Assembly: GCF_000801315.1 (NCBI RefSeq)
Contig: NZ_CP010054.1
Span: forward strand, 1,054,001-1,118,000
Direction: 5' to 3'
Length of the DNA: 64,000 nt
Origin: Hymenobacter sp. DG25B
Lineage (GTDB): Bacteria; Bacteroidota; Bacteroidia; Cytophagales; Hymenobacteraceae
The position numbers and the translations under genes were made by a program. Below are positions 732 to 48,152 of this stretch, piece by piece (positions within the stretch are counted from its first letter, which is position 1; every line of letters begins with the position of its first letter). A model generated the notes under the pieces. The model was given only the letters and a program-made list of their open reading frames with translations. It made no database searches and was not told the DNA's origin.

Positions 732-1180
732 GCGGGAAGGCTGACGGCGGAACGAAAGTCCCGCACTACCTGGGCAGGGCGGGGCAATTAGCTGGCAAAG
801 GTATCCTGAAAATCGGGAAATCCATACCGCCGCACTAGGGCTTTTGCCTTTGTAGCACATTAGCGGGATAAACAAATCCAGTAGCCTTTATATTCCTGCC
901 GCTGGCTTGAACTTTACTAACATACACCTGGTTAGCATTTCCATTTTGCTATTGAATAGCTCGTAATTATACACCCGATAGAAAGGCCGCATATTACGGC
1001 GGGGCTATAAATTATACTTGTATTATATCAATGTAAGGAATGATTAAAATTATAAAAAAATGATAAAATTATAATTTCCTTACCCAGCACTATACCAAGT
1101 CATACGTTATCCAAAGTAAAGTCGCCAAATTGCACTCTGAATCTGATTTTGACTTTTCTAATTCCACTTACCTATTGCTT
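732..1180. other. Divergent intergenic region with AT-rich inverted repeat
   Basis: This 449-base gap between divergently read nuoK and the giant surface-protein gene holds no convincing gene. The nuoK side carries the -7 element at 796-803. The other side (about 900-1130) is markedly AT-rich. It contains an inverted repeat, GTAAGGAA at 1033-1040 and TTCCTTAC at 1076-1083, flanking two near-identical direct repeats of the form TGATnAAAATTATA. This could be an operator or leader structure for the surface-protein gene; its role is not shown by the sequence. Confidence 0.4.
796..803 (-). promoter_or_regulatory. Bacteroidota-type -7 promoter element upstream of nuoK
   Basis: The minus strand reads TACCTTTG, a perfect match to the Bacteroidota TAnnTTTG element, about 65 bases before the nuoK ATG. 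No clear TTG is seen 19 bases further upstream, so only the -7 half is supported. It fits with nuoK starting its own transcript. Confidence 0.5.
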
Positions 1181-4100
1181 ATGAGAAGATTACTTACTCT
1201 GTTACTGCTGATTCTCAGTAGTACATTGGCGCATGCTGCTACCTATTATACCTATATAGGTGGGGGCACGAATGGCCCGTGGAATAACGCGGCTAGCACC
1301 AAAACCTGGACAACAGACCCCACAGGCTCTGTTCTGACGAATTCTGGTGTGCCGGCTAATGGGGACGCGGTAGTAATCCTAAACGGATACACGGTTAAAC
1401 TAACAGCCAGCGTTGCCACAACCGGCTTGAGCATCACTATTCAGAAAGGTGGCGTGCTGGACATGCAGAACTTTGGCTTCAGCAGCACCATTACCAAGCT
1501 GGATGGCCAGGGTCTGTTGCGTCTGGCTAGTGTGAACTTTCCTGGTATCACCACCAACAATTTTGATGATGCGGGCACCGGTACGGTAGAATACTATGAT
1601 CTGGGCACGGAGAATCTGCCTACAATTGCGCAGTATAATAACCTGCTGTTCAGTAATAGCAAGCCAACGGCTATGGAAGCTTCGGTCAGAACCGGTACTA
1701 CGGTGCTGGGTACCCTGACCACTAAGAAGACCGGTGCAGGCGCCCTCACACTGTCTTTAGGCGCAAATGATATAGCCGTTACTGGGGATATGACCCTGGC
1801 AGCTGGTACAATGCTTACGGGAAGTGGAGACATTACCAGCAGCGGGAATATAACCAATAACGGAACTATCAGCAGTACGGGCTCTATTACTTTCACGGGT
1901 GCCGCTAACCGCACCTTTGCAGTTAATGGCGCTACATCGTTAAAGTCCATTATAATTAACAAGGGTAGCAACGCACAGTATATATTATCCGTCACTGCCG
2001 GTGCCGCGAACTTGCTCTCCTTAACGGATACCGGGAATAACAATCCTAAAATCGATATTCAAAACGGTACCATTCAGCTGGGTAGCAATATCACTACGCA
2101 GTTAATGGTTTCAGCCAATGGTAACAATGGCTATGTCATTCCCGCTACAGCAGGCCTTTGGGTGAATGGTGCTGATATATCTGTGCCTGCCGCTGTAAAT
2201 GGTGGTCTGATATCGTTGGGGAGTTTCCGTATCAGTGCAGGTACGTTCACCTCAACCGGTAACGATGGTACCGTAATTGGCGACGTAGGCAGCTATACCA
2301 TAGAAGGGGGAACAGTAAATTCTGAAAAGTTCAGCCCAAAGAAGGTAGGAACGCCTGTCGGCAGCTTTGTGATGACAGGTGGTACCATGAACCTGAAGGG
2401 AACTGGTGCTAATATGAATAACCAGAAGCCCTATGCGCGCTTCTCTGTTCCGTATTCGGGACAGACGTATAGCGTAAGTGGTGGTACCATCAATGTGTAC
2501 AACTCGGAAGACAGCGGCCAGGGTGCACTGTCCGCCGTGGAAATCGGAGTTGGGACCGGTAACTACTCGGTTACGGGCGGCGACTTCAATGTGATTTTGC
2601 CCGGCACCGGTATCTTCAACAATACGCAGAACATGAACATTTCCAGCACGGTGCCGTTCTGGAATTTGTCTATCTCCCGCCCGGTAGCGGGCACTGGTAC
2701 GCCGGTAGCCGCCTTAGCTGCTACGGTAAATAATACCGTTCAACCGCTGGTAGTAGCGAATAATCTGATACTGGTAAGCAGCGCTAACCAACCCACCCTA
2801 CAGACCAACAGCCAGAACGTAACGGTACAGGGTGACTTTGTAATTAACACTGGTACGGTGTACCTACCCGGTGCCAATGCCACCAGCTTTACCGGCAGCA
2901 AAAATCAGTCGCTGCAGATTGACGGCACCATTGGATTAACCGGCGCCTTGGGTCTGAACCAGATGGTGATGGACAAATCGAACGGTACGCTCACGCTGGC
3001 TGGTTCCTCTACTGCTTCCATGCGGGTGCGCAGCACTCTTACCTTGGCAAACGGTGTATTCAACGATGCGGGCAAAGTTCTCACGGTGCTGGGCAACGTG
3101 GTCAACTCGGCTACGCACACCAGCAGCGGCACCACCACCGGCAGCATCACGCTGGCCGGCACAGCTCTGCAAACCGTAGGCGGCGATGGGAGCGGTATCT
3201 TCGGTAACCTGATCCTCAACAACACAACGGGTGCAGCGGGCACTCTGGCCGTGCAGGCTACTGCCGATCAGACCGTAAGCGGTACGCTTACCCTGGCCAA
3301 CGACCGGCTGTTCGACATCAACACGCATCGGTTATATATTACTGCAGTAAGCAAAGACGCCATTGTAGCTACTGGAGGAGCTTTCTCCAGCACGCGCATG
3401 ATCCTGACTGCGGGTAACCAGAGCGACGGTGGTATTCGCAAAACCTATGGCTCGCTGGAGGCCTTTATCTTCCCCGTGGGTACGCAGGTAGGCGCCACTT
3501 ATTACTATACCCCTGCCGCCATCAATCTCACGGCCGTGCCAGGTAAGTATGGGAAAATAAATGTGGCTCCGGTAAAAGTGGTGAACCCTTTCTCCACTGA
3601 TAAGCCCAAAACGCTGCAGTATTACTGGAAGGTATCAGAATATGACTTTGCTGGTCTGGCTGCTAATAAGGTCGTGCACAAGTACACGGCACCCAATGCG
3701 CTGATCAGTGGGGATAAAGCTTTCTATGTAGCCGCCTACTACGACCCGGCTACCGTGACCTGGAAGACGAATAACCAGGCCAGTGATGTAGTGAAAAATG
3801 CGACCACCCTTGATATCAACTTCTCGGGCGTGAACATTAATGGGGAATACACGGCTGGTGACTACCGCACGGCCTTCGGTACCATCAACAAGTTCTACAG
3901 CCGCAAAACCGGTAACTGGAACGATGCCACTACGTGGTCGAGAACCGGCTATGATGGCGTAGCTACTACCGATGTGCCGGGTGCCGGCAACCCTGTATTC
4001 ATTGGCAACAACTATACGGTAACGGTTACGGCTAACGGGGTTGCCTCCGGTAGCCTGCAGATAGATAAAGGGGCTACGCTGGATGTTGGAACTACTACCG

Positions 4101-7100
4101 GCCATAACTTTGGCTCCCTGCCCGAGGAAATTGTGCAGGGCTCCGGTACGCTGCGCATTGCCAGCACGGGTGCTACCGCCGTATTCCCTGGTGGTGACTT
4201 TGCTAACTTCCTGGGAACACAAGGCGGTACGGTAGAGTACTACACGGTTGGAAATACCAACTTTACACTGCCCGCCAACACCGTAGCCAGCTACTACAAT
4301 CTGGTATTGAATGCCGGTGCTGGCCGCACGCTTACCCTGCCCAACCAAAACCTGCGCATTTATAATGATTTGAGCGTGGGTACCCTGGCCGGTTACACCG
4401 GTTTGGCCGCGCTCAGCGCCGGAGTGAATGGTGACCTCACGATTGGTGGCAATATAGATGTACAGAATGGCCGGCTCCAGTATGGTGCCGCCACGCGTAA
4501 CGTTGTGGTAGGTGCTAATGTGCTGGTTGGATCGGGGGCTGCTTTTGGTATTGTAACCGGTACTGCAGCTAATACGCTGCAGATAGGCGGTGGCGTTACG
4601 AATAACGGCACATTTGATCTGGCACCTGCAGGTGGCAAGATTGATGTAACGTTTGTAGGTGACACGGACCAGAAAATAACCGGTACCGGTACCACCACCA
4701 GATTCAATAAGCTCACCGTTGACAAAGGCACTTCCCGCACACCGGTTATAACACTGGATGTAGCGGGTACCTTATCCGTACCAACCACTGATAATTGGCT
4801 GGTGCTGACCAATGGTACATTCAGTTTCGCCAAAACCAATACTACTATTCAGGTAAATGCCGGAGAATATACTATTGGCAACACGGCTGGACTGGCAGTA
4901 AATGGCACCGGAGCCGTTATTAATCTTGCCACGGGGGCTAACCTGCAATTGGATGGCCGCCTGAGTGCATTGGCTGGCACCATAAACGTAGGGCGCAGCA
5001 TAGAATATTCCGGCGCTAGCCAGCCGGAAATTCTGGTAACCACCGGTACGCTAAACGTGGATGGCCGTATTCGTCGGCCTTTCACTACTACCCAGGGCGC
5101 TCTAACCTACACCCAGACCGGCGGAGCCGTGCTGGTACGGGGCAACAATGCTACTACTAACCTGACCCGGGCCCAGTTTGAGGTGCTGAACGCTGGCAGC
5201 TCCTTCAACATGTCAGGGGGTACGCTCACCGTGCTCAAAACATTAAGTAGTGGTACTACCGCCGATGTATACCTGCACCCGGCTGCCAGCACCGTAACGG
5301 GTGGCGAAATCATCCTGGGTACCAGTGGTGCCACGGTTGCTTCTACTCTGACGCTGGATACTTCAGTGCCCTTGTATAGCCTGAAGGTGGAGAATGGTGC
5401 CAATACCGCACAGCTGCTGCAAAATCCCCTCACGCTGAAAGGTAACCTGACTATTGGCAACGCCAATTCTATTTTTGATACCAATGGCTTCGATGTAGCG
5501 GTAGGCGGCAATTTCAGCAACGGTAACACCACCACCACTACCGGTTTGGCAGTGGGTGGTTACCGCGTGCAGACTGCTACGCAAACCACTACTTTGAACG
5601 GCTCATCCAACAACCAGCTGCTGACCGGTGCGCCCGGTAACCTGACCAACTTCGGCAACCTGGTAGTGAACAACACAAATTCCAGTGGCAAAGTAACCCT
5701 GGCTGCCAGCACCGCGCTGCGCGTGCAGGGACAGCTAACGCTTACGAAAGGCGAACTGGCGGATGGTGGCAACACTATTTCGGTGTTGGGCAATGTAGTA
5801 AACTCTGCCAGGCACAGTGGTACGGGCAAAATTGCCCTGATTGGTACGGCTGCTCAAACCATTGGTGGTAATGGCACGGGTATCTTTGGTAACCTGGAAG
5901 TGAACAATAGTAATGGCGCAACTACTCTGGTTGCCCAGCAGGTTGATGGCGTGCTTACGCTCACCAACGGCAACCTGACCATTGGCTCCAACCTCCTGAA
6001 ACTGACCAATACCAGCAGTGCAGCTATTGTTGGCACAACGAATACCAAGTACATTATCACTAATGGCAACGTGGCGGATGAAGGCGTGCAAAAGGCCTTC
6101 CCGGCTTCTGCAGCTGCCCGTTTCATCTTCCCCATTGGTGTAGCTGGCAAGTATACTCCGGCTTCCTATGATGTGAATACTAATGCGGTAGCGGGTACCA
6201 TCACAGTAGCGCCGGTAAACTCGGCACATCCCTCCACTACTGACAACACCAAATCAGAGCTGAAGTACTACTGGCGCGTGAATAGTACCGGATTCAGTAC
6301 GGGCAGCGCATTAGCTATTCGTCACGTGTACCAGTATGTGGCTGCGGATGCTCCTGAAGAAAGCTCCTACGTAGCCGGTCGGTTCCTGATTAATGGCTGG
6401 ATCCCTACTGGTGGTATCAGCTCTACTATATTGACGGCACAGCATGTTATTGCTCTCGCCAATATCACAGCAAATACGACGGTTAGCTATATTAATGGTG
6501 ACTACACGGCTGGTGCATCATCGGAATTCCAGGCGGTGAAAGTGTACTACAGCCGCAACTTGGCTCCCAACATTACTACTACCGGTGCTGACTGGGCTAC
6601 GGCCAGTTCCTGGACATTCCAGGCTGATGGCTCGGATGCAGCCGTGATGCCGACTGCAGGCCCTGTGGCTGGTACGCCGGTGGTAATTTTGCCAACCCAC
6701 GTTATTAAAACGGCAGCCGCTGGCCAGAATGCTTCGTCACTGACGCTGAACGGAACACTGGACATCAGCAACTACACCTCCAACAACTTTGGTGTGGTAA
6801 CAGGCACGGGTCGTCTGAAAATCAACTCCTCTACCTTCCCGGCCGGTAATTATGCTGACTTCACGAGCGGCACCGGTGGAACGGTAGAATATACCGGCTC
6901 CATTGTAACGCTGCCACCCCGCTCTGTCTACAATAATCTGGTGTTCTCCGGCACGGGGGCTACCAAGTCCTTGGGCAACGTGGCCTTGCAGCTGAATGGT
7001 TATATGACGATTGAGGCCGGCAACACGGTGAATAACAATGATAACATTGATGTTACGCTGCTGAATGCCGCTCAGAACTTTATCAACAGTGGTACAGTGA

Positions 7101-8884
7101 ACCTGGGGAATGGCGCCCTTACCGTAGCGGGCTCCCTGACGAATAACGTTGCGGCCAGCCTGACGCTAGGTGGTAAAGCCACGGTAGGAGCCACGCTAAC
7201 CAACACTGGCACGCTAACTTCCGCTGATGGCGAAGTAGTAGCTGCTACCCTGGTAAACTCCGGTACTTATAACACGGGGGCTGGTGCACTACGCGTAACG
7301 GCTGATCTGACCAACTCCGGTACCCTGAACGCGGAGAACCAAAGCGGCGCTATTACGGTAGGTGGTAACCTGACAACCTCCGGCATCTTCCGGGCTGGCA
7401 ACGGCAACTTGACGGTAGCCGGCAACGTGTCAAACTCGGGGGCTTACTTTGCCAACGCAAACCCGCTCACCATTGGCGGCGACTTTGCTAACCTGGGCAC
7501 TGGTAGCTTCAACGCGGGCACCGGCACTATTGATCTGCAAGGAAACTGGACCAACTCGGCTACTTTCATTCCCAACATGGGCACGGTACGTTTCCTGAGT
7601 AATGTGGCCCGTACGCTGGGAGGCACACAGCCTACGGCATTCTACACGGTTTACAAGCAGGGCAGCGGTTCGCTGACTATGTCGCAGAACATAACGATTG
7701 GAAACGTGCTCAACCTCAACAATGGTAACATTGTGACGGGTGCCAACACACTGGCTCTCACCAATGCTGCTACGCAGCCGGTAATTGGCCAGAGCCTGAG
7801 TGCTTACATTCTGGGTAAACTGGCCATTACGTTCCCTACCACTTCGTTTGCTGCACGTACGTTCCCGGTGGGTAACTTCAAGCCGGGTGATACCTCCACC
7901 AACTTCTATCGTCCGGTAACTATTGTGGCCCAGGGCGGTAGCACTGCAGGTACAGTAGTACAGGTAGAAATGGTGCAGACTTCGGCAACCGGTCAGGTAG
8001 CAGCAGGCTCCGGCATCTCTAACCTGTCGCGGGTGCGCTACTACAGCATTACGGCACTTAGTGGAGCAATTAGCAGCCCAACGGTACAGCTAAGCTTTAA
8101 TACCAACATCAACGATGAGGAAATTAAAGTGCCCAGCAACCTGCGCGTAGCGCGGGCCACAGCGGCCGGCGGTACCTGGACAAATGAAGGCGGCGCGGGG
8201 GTATTCTCCCCGGCGGCTCCTGCCGGCTATGTTACCTCCGGGATAACCAGCATTACCAACAATTCGCTGTTTGCCCTGGCATCTACCAACCTGGTAGATA
8301 ACCCCCTGAACAATTCCTACACCCCGCTGCCTGTGGAACTGGTTACCTTCACGGCGAAAGCAGTGGGTACTACAGTGCGCGTGGCCTGGGCTACTTCTAT
8401 GGAGCGCAACAGCTCGTACTTTGTAGTAGAACGCTCCCTGAACGGTAAGGACTTTGAAGCGGTAGCGCAAGTTGCCGCTCAGGGCACCAGCACTACCCGC
8501 TTTGAGTATGCTGCCACTGATGCTCGTCCGTTCCAAGGCCAGTCGTACTACCGCCTGCGCCAGGTGGATAACGATGGCCGCACAGCGTACAGCGCCGTGG
8601 TAGTGGTGAAGATGGCCGGCCTTGCCAAAGCGGCGCTGCAGGCGTATCCTAACCCCGCTAAAGGCACGCAGTTCAATGTACTGGTACAGGGCCTGAAAGG
8701 CACGGCCGGCACCTTGCGCATCACCGACGGCTTTGGCCGCGAGGTGTACCGCATGGCGGTTAACCTGACGCTGGATCAGCAGGATATGCTGGTGAAGCCC
8801 GCTGCCAAGCTGGCAGCCGGCATGTACATCGTCTCGCTGCAAACGGCCGATGGCCGCTTCACGCAGAAGCTGGTAGTAGAGTAA
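1181..8884 (+). CDS. Giant three-module surface/secreted protein with T9SS type A sorting domain
   Basis: A 2567-residue protein, predicted to be exported by Sec and then by the type IX secretion system to the cell surface. The ATG at 1181 gives a clean signal peptide (MRRLLTLLLLILSSTLAHA); an open extension to a TTG at 1130 adds only 17 polar residues. The body is rich in Thr, Asn, Gly, Ser and Val, with recurring short strands suggestive of a beta-helix or filament. It holds three long related modules beginning near residues 20, 905 and 1788. Modules two and three open with (F/V)YYSR-like sequence and a TW motif; all three carry a GTVEY motif. About 95 residues before the end is an LPVELVTFTA segment with a fibronectin-like domain, then the sorting domain from about residue 2486 (LQAYPNPAKG, GMYIVSLQT). 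Probable adhesin or matrix protein; the ligand is unknown. It sits between nuoK and nuoJ. Confidence 0.9.
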   Translation: MRRLLTLLLLILSSTLAHAATYYTYIGGGTNGPWNNAASTKTWTTDPTGSVLTNSGVPANGDAVVILNGYTVKLTASVATTGLSITIQKGGVLDMQNFGFSSTITKLDGQGLLRLASVNFPGITTNNFDDAGTGTVEYYDLGTENLPTIAQYNNLLFSNSKPTAMEASVRTGTTVLGTLTTKKTGAGALTLSLGANDIAVTGDMTLAAGTMLTGSGDITSSGNITNNGTISSTGSITFTGAANRTFAVNGATSLKSIIINKGSNAQYILSVTAGAANLLSLTDTGNNNPKIDIQNGTIQLGSNITTQLMVSANGNNGYVIPATAGLWVNGADISVPAAVNGGLISLGSFRISAGTFTSTGNDGTVIGDVGSYTIEGGTVNSEKFSPKKVGTPVGSFVMTGGTMNLKGTGANMNNQKPYARFSVPYSGQTYSVSGGTINVYNSEDSGQGALSAVEIGVGTGNYSVTGGDFNVILPGTGIFNNTQNMNISSTVPFWNLSISRPVAGTGTPVAALAATVNNTVQPLVVANNLILVSSANQPTLQTNSQNVTVQGDFVINTGTVYLPGANATSFTGSKNQSLQIDGTIGLTGALGLNQMVMDKSNGTLTLAGSSTASMRVRSTLTLANGVFNDAGKVLTVLGNVVNSATHTSSGTTTGSITLAGTALQTVGGDGSGIFGNLILNNTTGAAGTLAVQATADQTVSGTLTLANDRLFDINTHRLYITAVSKDAIVATGGAFSSTRMILTAGNQSDGGIRKTYGSLEAFIFPVGTQVGATYYYTPAAINLTAVPGKYGKINVAPVKVVNPFSTDKPKTLQYYWKVSEYDFAGLAANKVVHKYTAPNALISGDKAFYVAAYYDPATVTWKTNNQASDVVKNATTLDINFSGVNINGEYTAGDYRTAFGTINKFYSRKTGNWNDATTWSRTGYDGVATTDVPGAGNPVFIGNNYTVTVTANGVASGSLQIDKGATLDVGTTTGHNFGSLPEEIVQGSGTLRIASTGATAVFPGGDFANFLGTQGGTVEYYTVGNTNFTLPANTVASYYNLVLNAGAGRTLTLPNQNLRIYNDLSVGTLAGYTGLAALSAGVNGDLTIGGNIDVQNGRLQYGAATRNVVVGANVLVGSGAAFGIVTGTAANTLQIGGGVTNNGTFDLAPAGGKIDVTFVGDTDQKITGTGTTTRFNKLTVDKGTSRTPVITLDVAGTLSVPTTDNWLVLTNGTFSFAKTNTTIQVNAGEYTIGNTAGLAVNGTGAVINLATGANLQLDGRLSALAGTINVGRSIEYSGASQPEILVTTGTLNVDGRIRRPFTTTQGALTYTQTGGAVLVRGNNATTNLTRAQFEVLNAGSSFNMSGGTLTVLKTLSSGTTADVYLHPAASTVTGGEIILGTSGATVASTLTLDTSVPLYSLKVENGANTAQLLQNPLTLKGNLTIGNANSIFDTNGFDVAVGGNFSNGNTTTTTGLAVGGYRVQTATQTTTLNGSSNNQLLTGAPGNLTNFGNLVVNNTNSSGKVTLAASTALRVQGQLTLTKGELADGGNTISVLGNVVNSARHSGTGKIALIGTAAQTIGGNGTGIFGNLEVNNSNGATTLVAQQVDGVLTLTNGNLTIGSNLLKLTNTSSAAIVGTTNTKYIITNGNVADEGVQKAFPASAAARFIFPIGVAGKYTPASYDVNTNAVAGTITVAPVNSAHPSTTDNTKSELKYYWRVNSTGFSTGSALAIRHVYQYVAADAPEESSYVAGRFLINGWIPTGGISSTILTAQHVIALANITANTTVSYINGDYTAGASSEFQAVKVYYSRNLAPNITTTGADWATASSWTFQADGSDAAVMPTAGPVAGTPVVILPTHVIKTAAAGQNASSLTLNGTLDISNYTSNNFGVVTGTGRLKINSSTFPAGNYADFTSGTGGTVEYTGSIVTLPPRSVYNNLVFSGTGATKSLGNVALQLNGYMTIEAGNTVNNNDNIDVTLLNAAQNFINSGTVNLGNGALTVAGSLTNNVAASLTLGGKATVGATLTNTGTLTSADGEVVAATLVNSGTYNTGAGALRVTADLTNSGTLNAENQSGAITVGGNLTTSGIFRAGNGNLTVAGNVSNSGAYFANANPLTIGGDFANLGTGSFNAGTGTIDLQGNWTNSATFIPNMGTVRFLSNVARTLGGTQPTAFYTVYKQGSGSLTMSQNITIGNVLNLNNGNIVTGANTLALTNAATQPVIGQSLSAYILGKLAITFPTTSFAARTFPVGNFKPGDTSTNFYRPVTIVAQGGSTAGTVVQVEMVQTSATGQVAAGSGISNLSRVRYYSITALSGAISSPTVQLSFNTNINDEEIKVPSNLRVARATAAGGTWTNEGGAGVFSPAAPAGYVTSGITSITNNSLFALASTNLVDNPLNNSYTPLPVELVTFTAKAVGTTVRVAWATSMERNSSYFVVERSLNGKDFEAVAQVAAQGTSTTRFEYAATDARPFQGQSYYRLRQVDNDGRTAYSAVVVVKMAGLAKAALQAYPNPAKGTQFNVLVQGLKGTAGTLRITDGFGREVYRMAVNLTLDQQDMLVKPAAKLAAGMYIVSLQTADGRFTQKLVVE

Positions 8885-37831: not shown

Positions 37832-40447
37832 TTACCCAACGGCCGGAATTTCCACGTTGTTGAAGCGGATCTGGTGGCCATCTTCCAGTACGGCTTCCAC
37901 CACGGCATCCTTGCTCACGCGGCCGGAGAGAATGTCCTTCGACAGCTCATTCAGCACCAGGCGCTGAATCACGCGCTTCAGCGGCCGGGCCCCAAACTGC
38001 GGGTCAAAGCCCTGTTCGCCGAGGTAGTCCAGCACCTCGTCGGTGGCTTCCAGCCGGATGCCGGCTTCTTCCAGGCGGTGCTGAATCTGCTTGAACTGGA
38101 TGTCCACAATTTTGCGGATTTCCTTGCGCTTGAGGGGCTGGAACATCACAATCTCGTCGATGCGGTTCAGGAACTCGGGGCGCATGTGCTGCTTCAGGCG
38201 CTCTACTACTTCCTCGCGGGTGCGGTCCACCACTTCGTCGTGGTTGTATTCATTCAGCTCTTTGAAGTTCTTCTGAATGATATCCGCCCCCGTGTTGGAG
38301 GTCATGATGATGATGGTATTCTTGAAGTTCGCCACCCGGCCTTTGTTGTCGGTGAGGCGGCCATCATCCAGCACCTGCAGCAGAATGTTGAACACATCGG
38401 GGTGGGCCTTCTCAATTTCGTCGAGCAAAATCACGGAGTACGGCTTGCGGCGCACGGCCTCCGTCAGCTGGCCGCCCTCATCGTAGCCCACGTAGCCGGG
38501 AGGCGCCCCAATCAGGCGCGATACGGCATGGCGCTCCTGGTACTCGCTCATATCAATGCGCACCATGTTGTTCTCATCGTTGAACAGGTACTCGGCCAGG
38601 GCCTTGGCCAGCTCGGTTTTACCCACGCCGGTAGTGCCCAGGAAAATGAACGAGCCAATGGGCCGCTTGGGGTCCTGCAGGCCGGCGCGGGAGCGGCGCA
38701 CGGCATCGGAAATGGCCGCAATGGCTTCGCTCTGGCCGGCCACACGCTTGCCCAGCTCTTCTTCCAGGTGCAGCAGCTTCTCGCGGTCCGACTGCAGCAT
38801 TTTACTCACCGGAATGCCCGTCCATTTGGCTACCACCTCGGCAATGTCCTCCTGAGTTACCACTTCCTGCAGCATGGAGCCGCCTTCTTTGCTGGCGTTG
38901 GCAATGTCCTGGGCCTCTTTCAGCTTGGCTTCGGCTTCCTGAATCTTGCCGTAGCGCAGCTCGGCCACGCGGCCGTAGTCGCCCTGGCGCTCGGCCTGGT
39001 CGGCTTCCAGCTTGTAGCGCTCAATGGCTTCTTTCTGCTCCTGAATGTTGGTGAGCACCGATTTCTCGTTTTCCCACTGGGCTTTCAGGTCGTCGCGCTT
39101 CTCGCTCAGCTCGCTTAGCTCCTTGCTCAGCACGGCCTCCCGGTCCTTGTTGTTTTCGCGACGGATGGCTTCGCGCTCAATTTCCAGCTGCATAATGCGG
39201 CGCTGTACCTCGTCCAGCTCAGCGGGCATGGAGTTCAGCTCAATGCGCAGCTTGGCGGCCGCCTCGTCCATCAGGTCAATAGCCTTGTCGGGCAGGAAAC
39301 GGTCGGTGATGTAGCGGCTACTCAGCTCCACGGCGGCAATTACGGCGTCGTCGGTGATGCGTACGCCGTGGTGCAGCTCGTACTTCTCCTTGATACCGCG
39401 CAGAATGCTGATGGCGTCTTCCTGCGAAGGCTCGTCCACCATTACGGCCTGGAAGCGGCGCTCCAGGGCCTTGTCCTTCTCAATGTACTTCTGGTATTCC
39501 TTGAGCGTGGTAGCGCCAATGGAGTGCAGCTCGCCGCGGGCCAGGGCAGGCTTCAGCAGGTTGGCGGCATCCATGGCACCCTCGCCACCGCCACCGGCCC
39601 CAATGAGGGTGTGCATCTCATCAATGAACAGAATAATCTGCCCTTCGGAGTCGGTTACTTCCTTGATAACGGACTTGAGGCGCTCCTCAAACTCGCCCTT
39701 GTACTTGGCGCCGGCCACCAGCAAGCCCATATCCAGGCTCATGATGATTTTGTCCTTGAGGTTTTCGGGCACGTCGCCGGCTACAATGCGCTGGGCCAGG
39801 CCCTCCACAATGGCGGTTTTACCCACGCCGGGCTCGCCCAGCAGCACGGGGTTGTTCTTGGTGCGGCGGGAGAGAATCTGCAGCACGCGGCGAATTTCCT
39901 CGTCGCGGCCAATCACGGGGTCCATTTTGCCGGAGCGCACCTGCTCGTTCAGGTTGCGCGAGTAGCGGTTCAGGCTCTGGTACTGGTCCTCGGCGGTTTG
40001 GCTGGTTACTGTGCGGCCCCCGCGCAGCTCCTTAATGCCGGCTTTCAGGTCTTTTTCGTTGAATCCCGCGTCCTTCATCAGCGTGGCTACGCTGTCTTTG
40101 CCGCCCAGCAAACCCAGCAGCAGGTGCTCCACGGATACGTACTCATCCCCAAACTCCTTGAGGAAGCCCGAGGCGCGCTGCAGCGCCGAGTTGGCATCGT
40201 TGGACAGGTACGGCGAGCCGCCGCTCACCTTGGGGTAGGCAGCTACAATGGCGTCCAGGCGCGGGGTAAGAATATTGAGGTTGACGCCCAGTTTCTTGGC
40301 CAGAAACGACAGCACATTCTCGTCGCTCTGGAAAAGGCCCTTCAGCAAATGGCCAGTTTCAATGGCCTGCTGCTGGTTGGCGCCGGCAATTTCAGTGGCC
40401 TTCTGCACGGCCTCCTGTGCCTTAATGGTATAGTTGTTAAAGTTCAT
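37832..40447 (-). CDS. clpB: ATP-dependent disaggregase ClpB
   Basis: An 871-residue Hsp100 chaperone that pulls proteins out of aggregates with DnaK. The order is the N-terminal Clp repeat domain (residues 1-145), AAA1 with [17 protein letters not shown] near 205 and [14 protein letters not shown] near 275, a long coiled-coil middle domain (about 400-525) that marks ClpB rather than ClpA/C, AAA2 with [16 protein letters not shown] near 610 and [14 protein letters not shown], and the C-terminal domain. The length is typical. It has no HrcA/CIRCE box that I can see upstream. The 142 bases before it lead into the AT-rich island. Confidence 0.97.
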
Positions 40448-40589
40448 GGCTACTAGGGCTTAAGTAGATGCTTCGGTTAAGAAGTTCTACGAGTGCCCTA
40501 GCAAACCGGGTGCAGAAGAGTTTTTGCTGACTTTTTGGCTGGTTTTGAATTCTGTTTTATTAATTTTTGTGAAGTAATGTCATGATAAA

Positions 40590-41282
40590 TTATGCCGGCC
40601 AGAACTGGCTGCCTGAAGATATAGATAAGTTGCTATAAGCAATTGAATCTATTTTCCTTGATAATGTGCGAATATTCCGCAGATGGCGCGTAGCATCTGC
40701 ATAAGTGACATTAGGGGGAAATTCATGCGCTAAAGATTCTCGTACGCCTAGAAATGATTCAAGATATAATGTATAATTTTTTTTGTATTTTATATTTATT
40801 GATTTAAAAATATCTTCTATTTCGAGTGTAGAAAACATTTTTTTTATGTTGTCAATAGAGGGGTACTTCTTATTTCCATAAATATGTACACCTCTTATAA
40901 AAGAAGGCAATGTAGAGTTGTTATTAGATATCATAAATGAAAAATCGGTAAAGTTAACCTTTAATGAAGCTGCGTGCTCATTCCCATTGAAAGTAAAGTT
41001 TTTAAATAGGCTACTTTGATGACGAATATATATTATTTTTCTAGTTTTTTGTGGTAATTTATCCATTGTTGCATGTTGTAATCTGAGTTTAGATATCCAG
41101 TCATCTATTAATGATTTAAGATAATTTTCCAAGGATGAGCAAGTTAATAGTATAGAGCCTTGAAAAGCTAATGTTTTTGATTTGTAACTTAAACTGCTGG
41201 CTCTGAATTCATTGCATCTTATTAATAAATCTTCAATAGTTGATTCAAATTGAATGAGGGCAATGCTTTTGGAATATGCCAT
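40590..41282 (-). CDS. HEPN-domain RNase-like protein (MAE_28990/MAE_18760 type)
   Basis: A 230-residue all-alpha protein. The catalytic HEPN motif R-x4-H is seen as RESLAH (R181-H186) near the C terminus, preceded by a Tyr/Leu helix. The N-terminal half (SILLTCSSLENYLKSLIDDW) resembles the MAE_28990-type HEPN nucleases found with DUF262 proteins. It would cut RNA when activated. Its ATG directly abuts the stop of the DUF262 gene (no bases between), so the two are translated together. The base composition is visibly AT-rich, with codon use unlike the GC-rich neighbours, indicating recent transfer. Confidence 0.78.
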   Translation of the reverse strand: MAYSKSIALIQFESTIEDLLIRCNEFRASSLSYKSKTLAFQGSILLTCSSLENYLKSLIDDWISKLRLQHATMDKLPQKTRKIIYIRHQSSLFKNFTFNGNEHAASLKVNFTDFSFMISNNNSTLPSFIRGVHIYGNKKYPSIDNIKKMFSTLEIEDIFKSINIKYKKNYTLYLESFLGVRESLAHEFPPNVTYADATRHLRNIRTLSRKIDSIAYSNLSISSGSQFWPA

Positions 41283-42386
41283 TTATTTTAATAAAGATTT
41301 TATAGTGTCAGAAAATCTATTAATTCTATATTTTACAAATCCCTCATCACTTGTATGGGCAATAACGCTAGAAATAAATTTTTCGTCAGATAAAAGTTTA
41401 GTGGTTGCGGTAATAACTTGCTCTTTTTTAGTGACTAAAGCTAGTCGCTCTTTATTTGTCAATCGAGCAAATGAAACCATTTGTGCATCAAAGAGAGCGG
41501 CATTAAAGGTTTTTTTAGCTTTTATATCAGCATCATATACTTTGAAAGCAATGTCTCCGTAGATTTTATTAATAGAATCTATGCTTTGCTCAAATACTCC
41601 CTTCCAATTGGATAATTGCTCTTTGCTTGTATTGCGGTGGGTTTCACAAAATTGATTTAAGTATGTTACAAACGGTTTCTTGTACTCTTGAAAATTTTCA
41701 TACAGAGCGAAAAACCTCAAGATAAGTTCTTCGCTTCTCATGCGTTTGTCTTTATGCATTGATGTTAGGTCAATCCAAACTCTGTCTTGAGCTAATTTTT
41801 CAATTGCTTCTATTAGTGGGCCATAGTAAATGCCGTGTCTTAATTCTTGAGGATTTAACTTTACTGACCCCGTGTTTAGTCGTTCAAATACATCAAATTT
41901 AATTTGAGGATGCGTAGTTTTTAATATAACAATACATCTTAATGTTCTGTTTAATATATGTTTTTGAAATCTAGAATCTAAATCACTGAACTTATTTCCT
42001 TCAAGTTCGGGATATGCAGTTAGCCCTTGTAGGGCAAACTCATCTTCTAAATAAAGCTTTATACTAGTTAAGCGTTGGTTTCCATCTATAACACTTAGTG
42101 TTTCATCGGATCCTTGGCTTAGGTATATTACAGGAATGGGGCATTGTATAATCAGGGATTCAATAAGTCTTGAAGCTTGTGCTCTGTTCCATACAAAAGC
42201 CCTTTGGAACTCAGGTATCACCATGCTTTTGTTTTTTAAATAATTATGAATAGTTGATATTGTAAAATCATAAGTTTCGGTATTTAATCGACGTTGCTCA
42301 GGCTTTATATCAAGGATTTCTGAGCTTATATCATCATCTTCAACTGGGAACAGACGGTCTGCAAGAGATTTTGTGGGTTTGCTCAT
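41283..42386 (-). CDS. DUF262 domain-containing protein (GmrS-like, ParB/Srx-type fold)
   Basis: A 367-residue protein with the DUF262 core: SMVIPEFQRAFVWNRAQASR (residues about 55-74, the FQRxFVW motif), PIPVIYL, then VIDGNQRLTSIKLYL with the DGNQR nucleotide-binding motif (101-105), and VFERLNTGSVKLNPQELR. DUF262 proteins bind or hydrolyse nucleotides. They are part of type IV restriction (GmrSD) and other anti-phage systems. Here the GmrD-type nuclease domain is missing; a HEPN RNase-like gene follows instead with no gap. AT-rich composition sets the pair apart. A sensor-effector role is inferred. Confidence 0.85.
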   Translation of the reverse strand: MSKPTKSLADRLFPVEDDDISSEILDIKPEQRRLNTETYDFTISTIHNYLKNKSMVIPEFQRAFVWNRAQASRLIESLIIQCPIPVIYLSQGSDETLSVIDGNQRLTSIKLYLEDEFALQGLTAYPELEGNKFSDLDSRFQKHILNRTLRCIVILKTTHPQIKFDVFERLNTGSVKLNPQELRHGIYYGPLIEAIEKLAQDRVWIDLTSMHKDKRMRSEELILRFFALYENFQEYKKPFVTYLNQFCETHRNTSKEQLSNWKGVFEQSIDSINKIYGDIAFKVYDADIKAKKTFNAALFDAQMVSFARLTNKERLALVTKKEQVITATTKLLSDEKFISSVIAHTSDEGFVKYRINRFSDTIKSLLK

Positions 42387-42686
42387 TATAATTTTAGAGA
42401 AAGTGACAAAACAAGTTTATTGGCTCCATTTTAAGTGGGCTAGTTTTGGCAAGTTAATAAGAAATAGTTGGCCCGTTTTAAGCTCAAAGTGGTGCGAGCT
42501 TATAGCTCGTGACCAGCCATATGGTGGAGGTTGTACCTGCACTGGAGTAAAGCGACAAACTACGTCGGGGCAGCCAGGCAAGAGAAGAGACAATGGAAGG
42601 TGTAGCCTCACGAACGGTACGCTAAACTAGCGCCAGCACTGCAGGATTGGATAAACAGGGCATAAAAGCCGGAAAAACCGCGCAGC
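42387..42686. other. Intergenic region upstream of the DUF262-HEPN pair
   Basis: 300 bases without a convincing gene. The first half is AT-rich like the island; base composition returns to the local GC-rich level by about 42480-42600, so the island edge lies here. No direct repeats marking integration, no tRNA and no clear promoter of the TAnnTTTG form were found. Confidence 0.5.
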
Positions 42687-43610
42687 TTATTCTCCCTTCC
42701 GAAATACCTTCTTCCCCAGCAGCACTATTTTCTCAACCACGAAACCAATCAGTAAGCCGCCAATAGCACAGGACAGCGCTTTGGCCAGCCAGGCCACCGC
42801 CGGTAGGTGGGCTAAAGCCACTTCCAGCTCGTGCAGTAAATGAGCGGTAAAGGGAATGCCGTGGGCTATGATTTCGGCGCCCACCCAGAGCATGGCGGCC
42901 GTACCCACATAGCTTAAGATGTTCAGGAAGTGCGGCATGAATTTTACGATGCCGCGCCCCAGTTTTTGCGTAGCGGGGTGGTATTTATCCTGGGCCATGT
43001 GTACCCCCACATCGTCGGCTTTCACAATCAGGCCCACAAAGCCATACACGGCCACGGTAATAAAAACGGCCACGGCCGCCATAACCACAATCTGGTTTAC
43101 TATCGGCTGCTCAGTTACCTGGCTGTAAGCAATGGCCATAATTTCGGCCGACAGGATAATATCGGTGCGCACGGCCCCCGCCACCCGTTCCTTTTCCAGC
43201 TCCTCCGGCGTAATTCTCTCTACCTGCTCGCTTTCCACGTCCACCTCGTGGTGCTTGCTGAACATGGAGTGCACCTTTTCATACCCTTCGAAGCATAAAT
43301 AAGCCCCGCCCAGCATTAGAATGGGCGTAATGGCCCAGGGAGCAAAATACCCCAGTACCAAAGCCGCCGGGCTCAGAATCAATAACTTATTGATCAGGGA
43401 CTTTTTGGCTATCTGATAAATAATAGAAAGCTCCCGGGAGGGGTCGAGGCCCACCACATATTTGGGCGTAACCGCCGTATCATCGATGACGATGCCCGAA
43501 ACTTTGCCGGTGGTTTTGGCTACCTGGGCGGGCACGTCATCCAGACTGGCTGCACTCACTTTTACCAACGCGGAAATATCATCCAGTAGCGCAAAAAAGC
43601 CTGAAGCCAT
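42687..43610 (-). CDS. DUF808 (YedI-like) inner-membrane protein
   Basis: A 307-residue protein of the YedI family. The start MASGFFALLDDISALVKVSAASLDDV is the family hallmark, and YVVGLDPSRELSIIYQIAKKSL follows. About six helices are seen, with a charged loop near residues 112-150 (EGYEKVHSMFSKHHEVDVESE). It ends with the conserved GGLLIGFVVEKIVLLGKKVF helix. Function unknown. It stands alone, upstream of the island on the right side. Confidence 0.92.
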   Translation of the reverse strand: MASGFFALLDDISALVKVSAASLDDVPAQVAKTTGKVSGIVIDDTAVTPKYVVGLDPSRELSIIYQIAKKSLINKLLILSPAALVLGYFAPWAITPILMLGGAYLCFEGYEKVHSMFSKHHEVDVESEQVERITPEELEKERVAGAVRTDIILSAEIMAIAYSQVTEQPIVNQIVVMAAVAVFITVAVYGFVGLIVKADDVGVHMAQDKYHPATQKLGRGIVKFMPHFLNILSYVGTAAMLWVGAEIIAHGIPFTAHLLHELEVALAHLPAVAWLAKALSCAIGGLLIGFVVEKIVLLGKKVFRKGE

Positions 43611-46809: not shown

Positions 46810-47156
46810 AATTTCTTTCTCAAAAAAGCGAATGGCTATAGCTACCCACGCTGGGGTGACTACTCGTGTTTTGAAAGAAATCAGCTATTACATAAACCAG
46901 TATTTACTGCTTGAGGAAGCTAAATTAAGCATTCTGACTTAAGGCCGCCTCTGCTGCCCGGCGCCTTAGCTCCGCTCAACCAGGAACACATATAGTACGG
47001 CAGTATAATGCCTATATACCACCAGCAGAAAGTATAAGGCGCAGGAACAACATAAAGTTGTGATTTTTTAGGACAATTTATATTTAAGTATTGACTATTT
47101 TTATATTGTTAAAGAAGTGGTTTTCGTGCTGTTATATCCTTAATCTAACCTCAACT
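46810..47156. other. Divergent intergenic region between the ABC-F and curlin-type genes
   Basis: 347 bases, AT-rich in the part nearer the curlin-type gene. No gene was found. A possible promoter for the curlin-type gene is listed separately; no operator is recognisable. Confidence 0.4.
47058..47086 (+). promoter_or_regulatory. Possible promoter of the curlin-type gene
   Basis: TTG (47058-47060), 18 bases, then TATATTTA (47079-47086), one mismatch from TAnnTTTG. It lies about 70 bases before the ATG at 47157. Confidence 0.35.
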
Positions 47157-48152
47157 ATGAAAAAGTCCCATTTGTTAATTGCCTTTGCACTCCTGGCAAG
47201 CAGGGTATCGGCTCAGTCTAATAGCAGCACCGTGGTGCAGGCTGGCCATAATAATGAGGCCTATGTAGAGCAAGTAGGCGAACAGAATACCGCGTCGCAA
47301 AACCAAAAGGGCAACCTTAACCAGGCCTCTATTTTGGAATCTGGCATGTCTAACACTGCCCGGCAGCAGCAACAAGGTGTGAGTAATACTGCCAGTATTG
47401 TAATGGACTTATCAAATGGGGCTACGGCGCTCCAAACCCAGAAAGGAAACAACAATCTGGCTACTGCGGATCATGATATGACCATTGGTATTTCGGAGCA
47501 GCGGCAGACCGGTAATTCCAATATGGCAACGGTACATCAGCAATATGGGCTGGCTACAGCCTATCAGGAGCAGATAGGCAACCACAATACTGCTTCTTCC
47601 GATCAGGCTGTTCTTCCTGGTAATGAGCAAATCTCGAAACAGTATCAATACGGTGACTACAATGAGGCTTCCATAACGCAGGGGAGGTTTGATCAGTATG
47701 CGCTGCAACTCCAGAATGGGAACCACAATAAGGCCAGCGTGAATCAGTATTATGACAATAATGTATCCGAGCAGTACCAATACGGAAATTACAATGAGGC
47801 TACCGTAACGCAGTTGTATAGCGGTGTTAACAAAGCCCTGCAGGTACAGCAGGGAAACTATAATGTGGCCACAATAGACCAGGACGCCGCATTCAACAAC
47901 ACAGCCACCCAACGACAGCGCGGCAACCGAAACCAGGCAGAGATAACGCAGGGCTATGATAATGAGGCCACCCAGACCCAGGAGGGCAACAACAACGAAG
48001 CCCGCATTGGGCAGGGTAATGATAATGAAGCCTGGCAGCGGCAAATAGGTAACGATAATACCGCCGTAACGCAGCAGGCCAGCCACAATAGCAGCACTAT
48101 CACGCAGGTGGGCAATGGCAATTCAGCCACCGTCATTCAGGCTATACCGTAG
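47157..48152 (+). CDS. Curlin-repeat amyloid protein (CsgA/CsgB-like)
   Basis: A 331-residue exported protein. The signal peptide is MKKSHLLIAFALLASRVSAQ. The rest is a tandem array of about 13 curlin-type repeats following G-(N/D/H)-x-N-x-A-x-(I/V)-x-Q, for example GNYNEATVTQ, GNHNKASVNQ and GNRNQAEITQ, spaced about 20-25 residues. Such repeats form extracellular functional amyloid fibres. Classic csgG, csgE and csgF export genes are not in this window. The ATG at 47157 gives the signal peptide; an open extension to 47091 is unlikely. It is followed by a strong terminator. Confidence 0.88.
   Translation: MKKSHLLIAFALLASRVSAQSNSSTVVQAGHNNEAYVEQVGEQNTASQNQKGNLNQASILESGMSNTARQQQQGVSNTASIVMDLSNGATALQTQKGNNNLATADHDMTIGISEQRQTGNSNMATVHQQYGLATAYQEQIGNHNTASSDQAVLPGNEQISKQYQYGDYNEASITQGRFDQYALQLQNGNHNKASVNQYYDNNVSEQYQYGNYNEATVTQLYSGVNKALQVQQGNYNVATIDQDAAFNNTATQRQRGNRNQAEITQGYDNEATQTQEGNNNEARIGQGNDNEAWQRQIGNDNTAVTQQASHNSSTITQVGNGNSATVIQAIP

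Follow-up and report, generated by a model that had tools for sequence, protein, structure and literature searches.

Background

DUF262 domains act as nucleoside triphosphatases in GmrSD, BrxU and SspE and carry a conserved DGQQR-type motif, according to the sections of a review that treat these systems (PMC10952713), which also state that GmrSD and BrxU target DNA with modified cytosines. A table in the same review assigns a DUF262 domain and a HEPN domain of family PF18735 to the anti-phage system PD-T4-2, and the relevant passages of Vassallo et al. 2022 (PMC9519451) describe PD-T4-2 as coming from E. coli ECOR65, as confirmed against T4 and as raising T4 plaquing when deleted from the native strain. 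In the survey of Anantharaman et al. 2013, the entry for the Ribo L-PSP-HEPN family reads "operon with ParB" (PMC3710099), and a study of domain polymorphism in Menshen, as cited in PMC12839542, may already cover HEPN partners. Here we describe a DUF262 gene with a HEPN gene directly downstream in a 64,000-nucleotide (nt) stretch of Hymenobacter sp. DG25B (the window; NZ_CP010054.1, 1,054,001-1,118,000; host genome 4.36 Mb). This is a known kind of pairing, of which the Hymenobacter pair belongs to a separate sequence clade. The reading that we favour, with a probability of about 0.65, is that of a mobile two-gene immune cassette, in which a GmrS-type sensor without the DUF1524 DNase controls a HEPN ribonuclease (RNase) and frees it on infection.

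The gene pair and its two proteins

An earlier note, made from the sequence alone, had placed the pair at exactly the coordinates that we obtained for the two open reading frames (ORFs), which are on the minus strand. It had their stop and start codons touching, and the junction indeed reads ...AAA TAA ATG GCA TAT..., with 0 bases between the codons. Its phrase "fused in translation" suits neighbouring genes, possibly with coupled translation, but not a fusion protein, the two genes being separate. The description of the pair as AT-rich in a GC-rich region was also borne out: guanine plus cytosine (G+C) makes up 32.5% of the pair (DUF262 gene, 33.5%; HEPN gene, 30.9%) versus 55.8% of the window, 59.7% of the gene downstream, which we take from its sequence to be clpB, and 53.6% of the DUF808 gene upstream. 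When the window is scanned in steps of 50, the 1797-nt stretch with the lowest G+C begins at 40551; the minimum among stretches of that length starting outside 38.5-44 kb is 46.9%.

The first protein matches PF03235 (GmrSD_N; E 1.3e-28, 100.9 bits, cut-off 33.2), a solid DUF262 assignment, and contains the FQRAFVW and DGNQR motifs claimed for it. DGNQR is probably the equivalent of the (I/V)DGQQR nucleotide-binding motif of GmrS (PMC10952713). The C-terminal half of the protein resembles a helical region of BrxU (residues 245-421), and the solved structures nearest to it by sequence are 7p9k/7p9m (BrxU; E 2e-4) and an 818-amino acid (aa) DUF262 protein (7e-4); Foldseek alone gave no match to the DUF262 model at E 0.001 or better. 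Neither protein of the pair matched the DUF1524 nuclease domain at E up to 1, which, together with the BrxU-like C-terminal half, upholds the earlier proposal that the HEPN protein stands in the place of GmrD.

The HEPN assignment proved equally solid, with a match to PF18735 (HEPN_RiboL-PSP; E 3.7e-11, 43.7 bits, cut-off 28.4) and the motif RESLAH at residues 181-186; 38 of the 41 members of the HEPN alignment also matched PF18735 in an independent Pfam scan. In alignment A3 (41 sequences), R181 was retained in 39/39 and H186 in 40/40 of the sequences with a letter at the position, and E52 in 41/41, so that the R-x4-H arrangement is more than chance. The residue two past H186 is F188, in a column that varies (G 12, E 7, F 4, S 3 and N 3 being the five commonest of 41). 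The HEPN model had a pLDDT of 93.8, and the VIA rows of the structure comparison mostly had HEPN proteins on top, HEPN toxins being the best matches. Foldseek alone returned no match for this model at E 0.001 or better, and a sequence search of solved structures found none close to the HEPN family (best E 0.15).

Linkage of the two genes in other genomes

Conserved linkage in other genomes was one of the points on which the earlier note had let its proposal stand or fall, and linkage was found to be conserved across several phyla. Loci in named genomes were searched with the DUF262 alignment (28 sequences) and the best 80 of 168 were kept. Among these, a HEPN match lay directly downstream in all 35 loci with a DUF262 protein of at least 46% identity (L061-L094 and L100), two of which are short (L082 and L092) and one of which has only a HEPN remnant (L078); gaps between the two genes were mostly -4 to +4 nt. 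At 40% identity or less, 6/45 loci had a HEPN match, and the rest mostly encoded longer DUF262 proteins, often of about 450 aa. The copy with the HEPN remnant is in a Desulfobacterales genome (L078:517-1720).

PF18735 was detected at E 0.001 in 45 of the 291 genomes of the order and scored over its cut-off in 39. Counting the window's own, 41 of the 62 HEPN matches in these genomes had a gene of the DUF262 type just upstream on the same strand. This figure combines 28/30 in one locus set, in which adjacency was judged from coordinates and the misses were L018 (no DUF262) and L027 (a 38-bit DUF262 piece), with 13/32 in the other, in which the two genes had to share a strand with a gap of -50 to 700. 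The HEPN profiles behind the named-genome, 30-locus and viral counts were built from the same families, which makes these counts partly circular; the PF18735 scan is independent. A narrow HEPN alignment gave no matches in the first genome-contig scan or in the viral scan, whereas the DUF262 alignment did find loci. One genome has two PF18735 HEPN genes on the same strand with a distance of about 1.1 kb between them, and a DUF262 gene precedes the first (L014 and L214; G256:C11).

For six of the seven nearest metagenome relatives, the HEPN match and the DUF262 match have a longest contig of equal size (3072, 4630, 104040, 10600, 5988 and 2235 bases), so that the pair is probably on one contig in each of the six; relative P0002 had no such DUF262 partner among the matches listed.

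Co-inheritance and carriage on mobile elements

The DUF262 and HEPN protein trees agree (Mantel r 0.859, n 33, 0/5000 shuffles). These 33 are the core of a first tree set (n 38, r 0.906), taken without L120, which forms a long branch, and without four further distant rows; L078, L092, L082, L079 and L081, each being a remnant, truncated, unsure in its start or a near-duplicate, had been left out before the trees. The tree spans Bacteroidota, Pseudomonadota, Bacillota, Verrucomicrobiota and others, and its 10 phylum labels require 14 changes, the least possible being 9 and the shuffle mean 19.5. Among the nearest relatives, the DUF262 proteins share 74-84% identity versus 53-66% for the HEPN proteins, a difference that would fit a sensor with a faster-changing effector and is only suggestive.

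According to the Pfam scan, the pair is carried by plasmids of Acinetobacter, E. coli, Klebsiella and Bradyrhizobium, and a P2-like phage has it too; a further pair, on a Hymenobacter plasmid, is known from the record's own annotation. In the P2-like coliphage (L150:140-3041), the DUF262 gene and then the HEPN gene lie near an annotated DNA-cytosine methyltransferase, and the HEPN protein fits PF18737 (MAE_28990) better than PF18735. On the Acinetobacter plasmid pAB1 (L148:3873-6714), the pair lies a few hundred bases from RelE/ParE-type toxin and helix-turn-helix genes. In 32 viral-contig loci with DUF262 proteins of 28-57% identity, the HEPN match reached at least 24 bits in 23, was weaker in 6 and was missing in 3; these counts include six HEPN matches below 20 bits and pairs that look like near-duplicates (L235/L236, L244/L245 and L249/L250).

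Comparison with described systems

The Ribo L-PSP-HEPN family of the 2013 survey shares its name with the Pfam model matched here, and ParB is the class that contains DUF262. Together with the domain labels of PD-T4-2 in the review table (PMC10952713), this listing (PMC3710099) means that the pairing as such is not supported as new. Our pair differs in forming a separate sequence clade, and the survey's passages on the family offer neither a mechanism nor a phage test.

Like our pair, PD-T4-2 has, by those labels, both a DUF262 gene and a HEPN gene of family PF18735, and the window's DUF262 protein matched the PADLOC model PD-T4-2_A at 157.3 bits, though NsnA of Menshen was the best model, with 292.9 bits over most of the length. 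The same ranking was seen in 6/6 members of the order and 5/5 plasmid or phage proteins scanned, all of them DUF262 proteins beside HEPN. The window's HEPN protein, in contrast, had no PD-T4-2_B match at E up to 1, the comparison being one with PADLOC models; that model matched 1/41 HEPN relatives (E 0.031), 0/291 genomes of the order and 1/14 control genomes. Because the PD-T4-2_B model was not matched, we do not file the pair as PD-T4-2.

HEPN-MNT (HepT-MntA) shares the HEPN fold and R-x4-H but has a conserved Tyr two residues after the His, where F188 is found here, and an MNT nucleotidyltransferase as partner instead of a PF03235 DUF262 protein; it was rejected on both motif (no R-x4-H-x-Y) and partner.

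The insertion site between clpB and the DUF808 gene

The positions of the pair, its motifs and its surroundings are collected in Table 1.

Table 1. Positions in the window of the two genes, their conserved motifs and the flanking features
Feature	Position	Strand	Basis
DUF262 / GmrSD_N protein, first gene of the pair, 367 aa	41283..42386	-	ORF and Pfam
HEPN_RiboL-PSP protein, second gene, 230 aa; its ATG adjoins the TAA of the first gene	40590..41282	-	ORF and Pfam
R181-E-S-L-A-H186, R-x4-H putative RNase motif	40725..40742	-	alignment A3
FQRAFVW motif, residues 60-66; F60, Q61, R62, V65 and W66 identical in all 28 A2 sequences	42189..42209	-	
DGNQR motif, residues 101-105; identical in all 28 A2 sequences	42072..42086	-	
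FERLNTGSV motif, residues 167-175, DUF262 core	41862..41888	-	sequence and alignment A2
clpB, host gene downstream, outside the pair	37832..40447	-	ORF; L184 protein 98.5% identical
DUF808 gene, host gene upstream, outside the pair	42687..43610	-	PF05661, 370 bits
Stretch without blastn counterpart in relative G302 (L184), which has other content there	40538..42549		blastn

Relative G302, whose DUF808 match (96% identical) is second only to that of the window itself, carries the same two flanking genes around its other content, and its flanks are 92% identical to positions 40000-40537 and 42550-42998. In the genus, 29/61 genomes were positive in the DUF808 protein search at E 1e-40, and 12 regions from 11 of them were examined; clpB and the DUF808 gene both flanked the site in 4/12, and the other 8/12 had no clpB match within the 6.4-8.6 kb examined. 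Inserts found elsewhere between the two genes were a transposase piece (L185), a DUF4238 gene (L186) and a PIN_8 gene (L189). The junction (window 40447-42687) is thus a variable site, with different inserts in four relatives (L184, L185, L186 and L189). Based on its composition and on the comparison with the relatives' clpB-DUF808 regions, the pair may be a fairly recent AT-rich acquisition at this site, and it was probably acquired horizontally. As for signs of an integrating element, there is no tRNA in the window, the only repeats are short and imperfect, with none at both insert edges, and promoter and terminator matches were no better than those in shuffled sequence.

Flanking proteins of the pair loci were scanned as well (121 of 125 prepared proteins), and MTase_II, REase_II, a type IIG enzyme, KwaB and SpbK were among the matches listed at E 1e-15 (25/62 families, the count being of families and not of distinct proteins). 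Elsewhere in the window, positions 47091-48152 encode a protein of N/Q-rich repeats, presumably resembling a curli-type subunit, and a 7.7-kb open frame at 1130-8881 may, we assume, encode a large secreted protein.

Proposed function and alternative explanations

The favoured cassette reading is based on intact genes, recognisable domains, conserved residues of catalytic type, linkage, co-inheritance and carriage on plasmids and phages. The DUF262 protein would be a GmrS-type sensor or regulator, with a nucleoside triphosphate (NTP)-binding core of the ParB/Srx fold and a helical domain, and the HEPN protein would be an effector RNase silenced by it. Phage DNA or another infection cue may then shift the NTP state of this sensor and so free or activate the RNase, with RNA being cut and phage production stopped, probably at the cell's cost (abortive infection). 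A more specific version, that the pair is a cross-phylum immune system whose sequences set it apart from PD-T4-2 and that its nucleotide-gated GmrS-type sensor, of a kind familiar from type IV restriction that cuts DNA, was re-wired to activate an RNase, we put forward only tentatively, as somewhat less probable than not.

Several results weigh against the cassette reading. NTP use, complex formation, the cue, RNase activity, its target and the fate of the cell are steps that we infer, the RNase being a predicted one, and the AlphaFold2 model of the DUF262 protein is too poor in residues 1-186, the N-terminal core, for the core fold to be judged. None of the PADLOC models matched the HEPN protein at E up to 1, and the link to the tested system PD-T4-2 is one of domain labels. 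Of the 21 HEPN matches without an adjacent partner, 15 scored below 40 bits and 6 scored 46-64, above the window's 43.3, so that HEPN proteins of the PF18735 family also exist without the DUF262 partner. The phylum labels in the tree cluster in part and cross in places, and such changes of label do not prove transfer. The immediate neighbours in the window, clpB and the DUF808 gene, are non-defence genes, and 47 window control proteins (of 48 listed, the 7.7-kb ORF being omitted) also matched 8 PADLOC models, so that the flanks lend modest support; with families counted rather than proteins, we claim no enrichment figure.

Among the rival explanations, plain toxin-antitoxin addiction, with a HEPN toxin and a DUF262 antitoxin acting by post-segregational killing and without a specific anti-phage role, is the one to be taken most seriously, though we consider it unlikely. 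It would account for a two-gene operon with touching genes, for carriage on plasmids, for a partner in nearly all HEPN loci of the 30-locus set and for HEPN toxins being the best structural matches. Antitoxins are usually small, however, unlike the 367-aa DUF262 protein, which is GmrS-like, has an invariant motif of the NTP-binding type and is both larger and more conserved than its HEPN partner. The best-known HEPN module of this kind, moreover, has the R-x4-H-x-Y motif and the MNT partner that are lacking here, and PD-T4-2, to which identical domain labels are given, is an anti-phage system (PMC10952713, PMC9519451).

A variant of type IV restriction, in which the DUF262 protein would recognise phage DNA that is modified, with HEPN as the nuclease subunit acting directly on the invading nucleic acid and sparing the cell, appears less probable still. 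The GmrSD_N domain, the BrxU-like helical region and the HEPN gene in the position of GmrD would all fit such a variant, as would the action of GmrSD and BrxU on modified-cytosine DNA (PMC10952713), but HEPN domains are typically ribonucleases, as the pertinent passage of PMC13092281 has it. The locus differs from GmrSD and BrxU in having no DUF1524 HNH-type nuclease fused or adjacent, the second gene being HEPN and the outer neighbours clpB and DUF808. Highly improbable, finally, is an incomplete Menshen (NsnA-NsnB-NsnC) system that has lost NsnB and NsnC and has a HEPN gene beside it by chance. The fit of the DUF262 protein to the NsnA model speaks for it, yet NsnA is equally the best model for the other HEPN-adjacent DUF262 proteins scanned, and the conserved, co-inherited pairing contradicts a chance neighbour. 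All seven NsnB matches in the genome lie outside the window stretch (C1:1054001-1118000), and NsnC had no match in the genome, its model being silent in the control too. With no NsnB in the locus and HEPN as the conserved adjacent partner, Menshen was rejected.

Significance

In the proteins scanned here, PADLOC's best label for the DUF262 protein is Menshen NsnA, and the HEPN protein is left unrecognised or weakly matched. This gap in defence annotation makes it easy to mis-file a cassette that occurs on plasmids, on phages and in chromosomes. On the re-wiring version, the sensor and effector of the GmrSD family would be exchangeable (HNH DNase, OLD/TOPRIM-type or HEPN RNase). If the cassette reading is true, DUF262 would be a general sensing chassis able to drive either a DNase or an RNase, and this small two-protein clade would allow the chassis idea to be tested.
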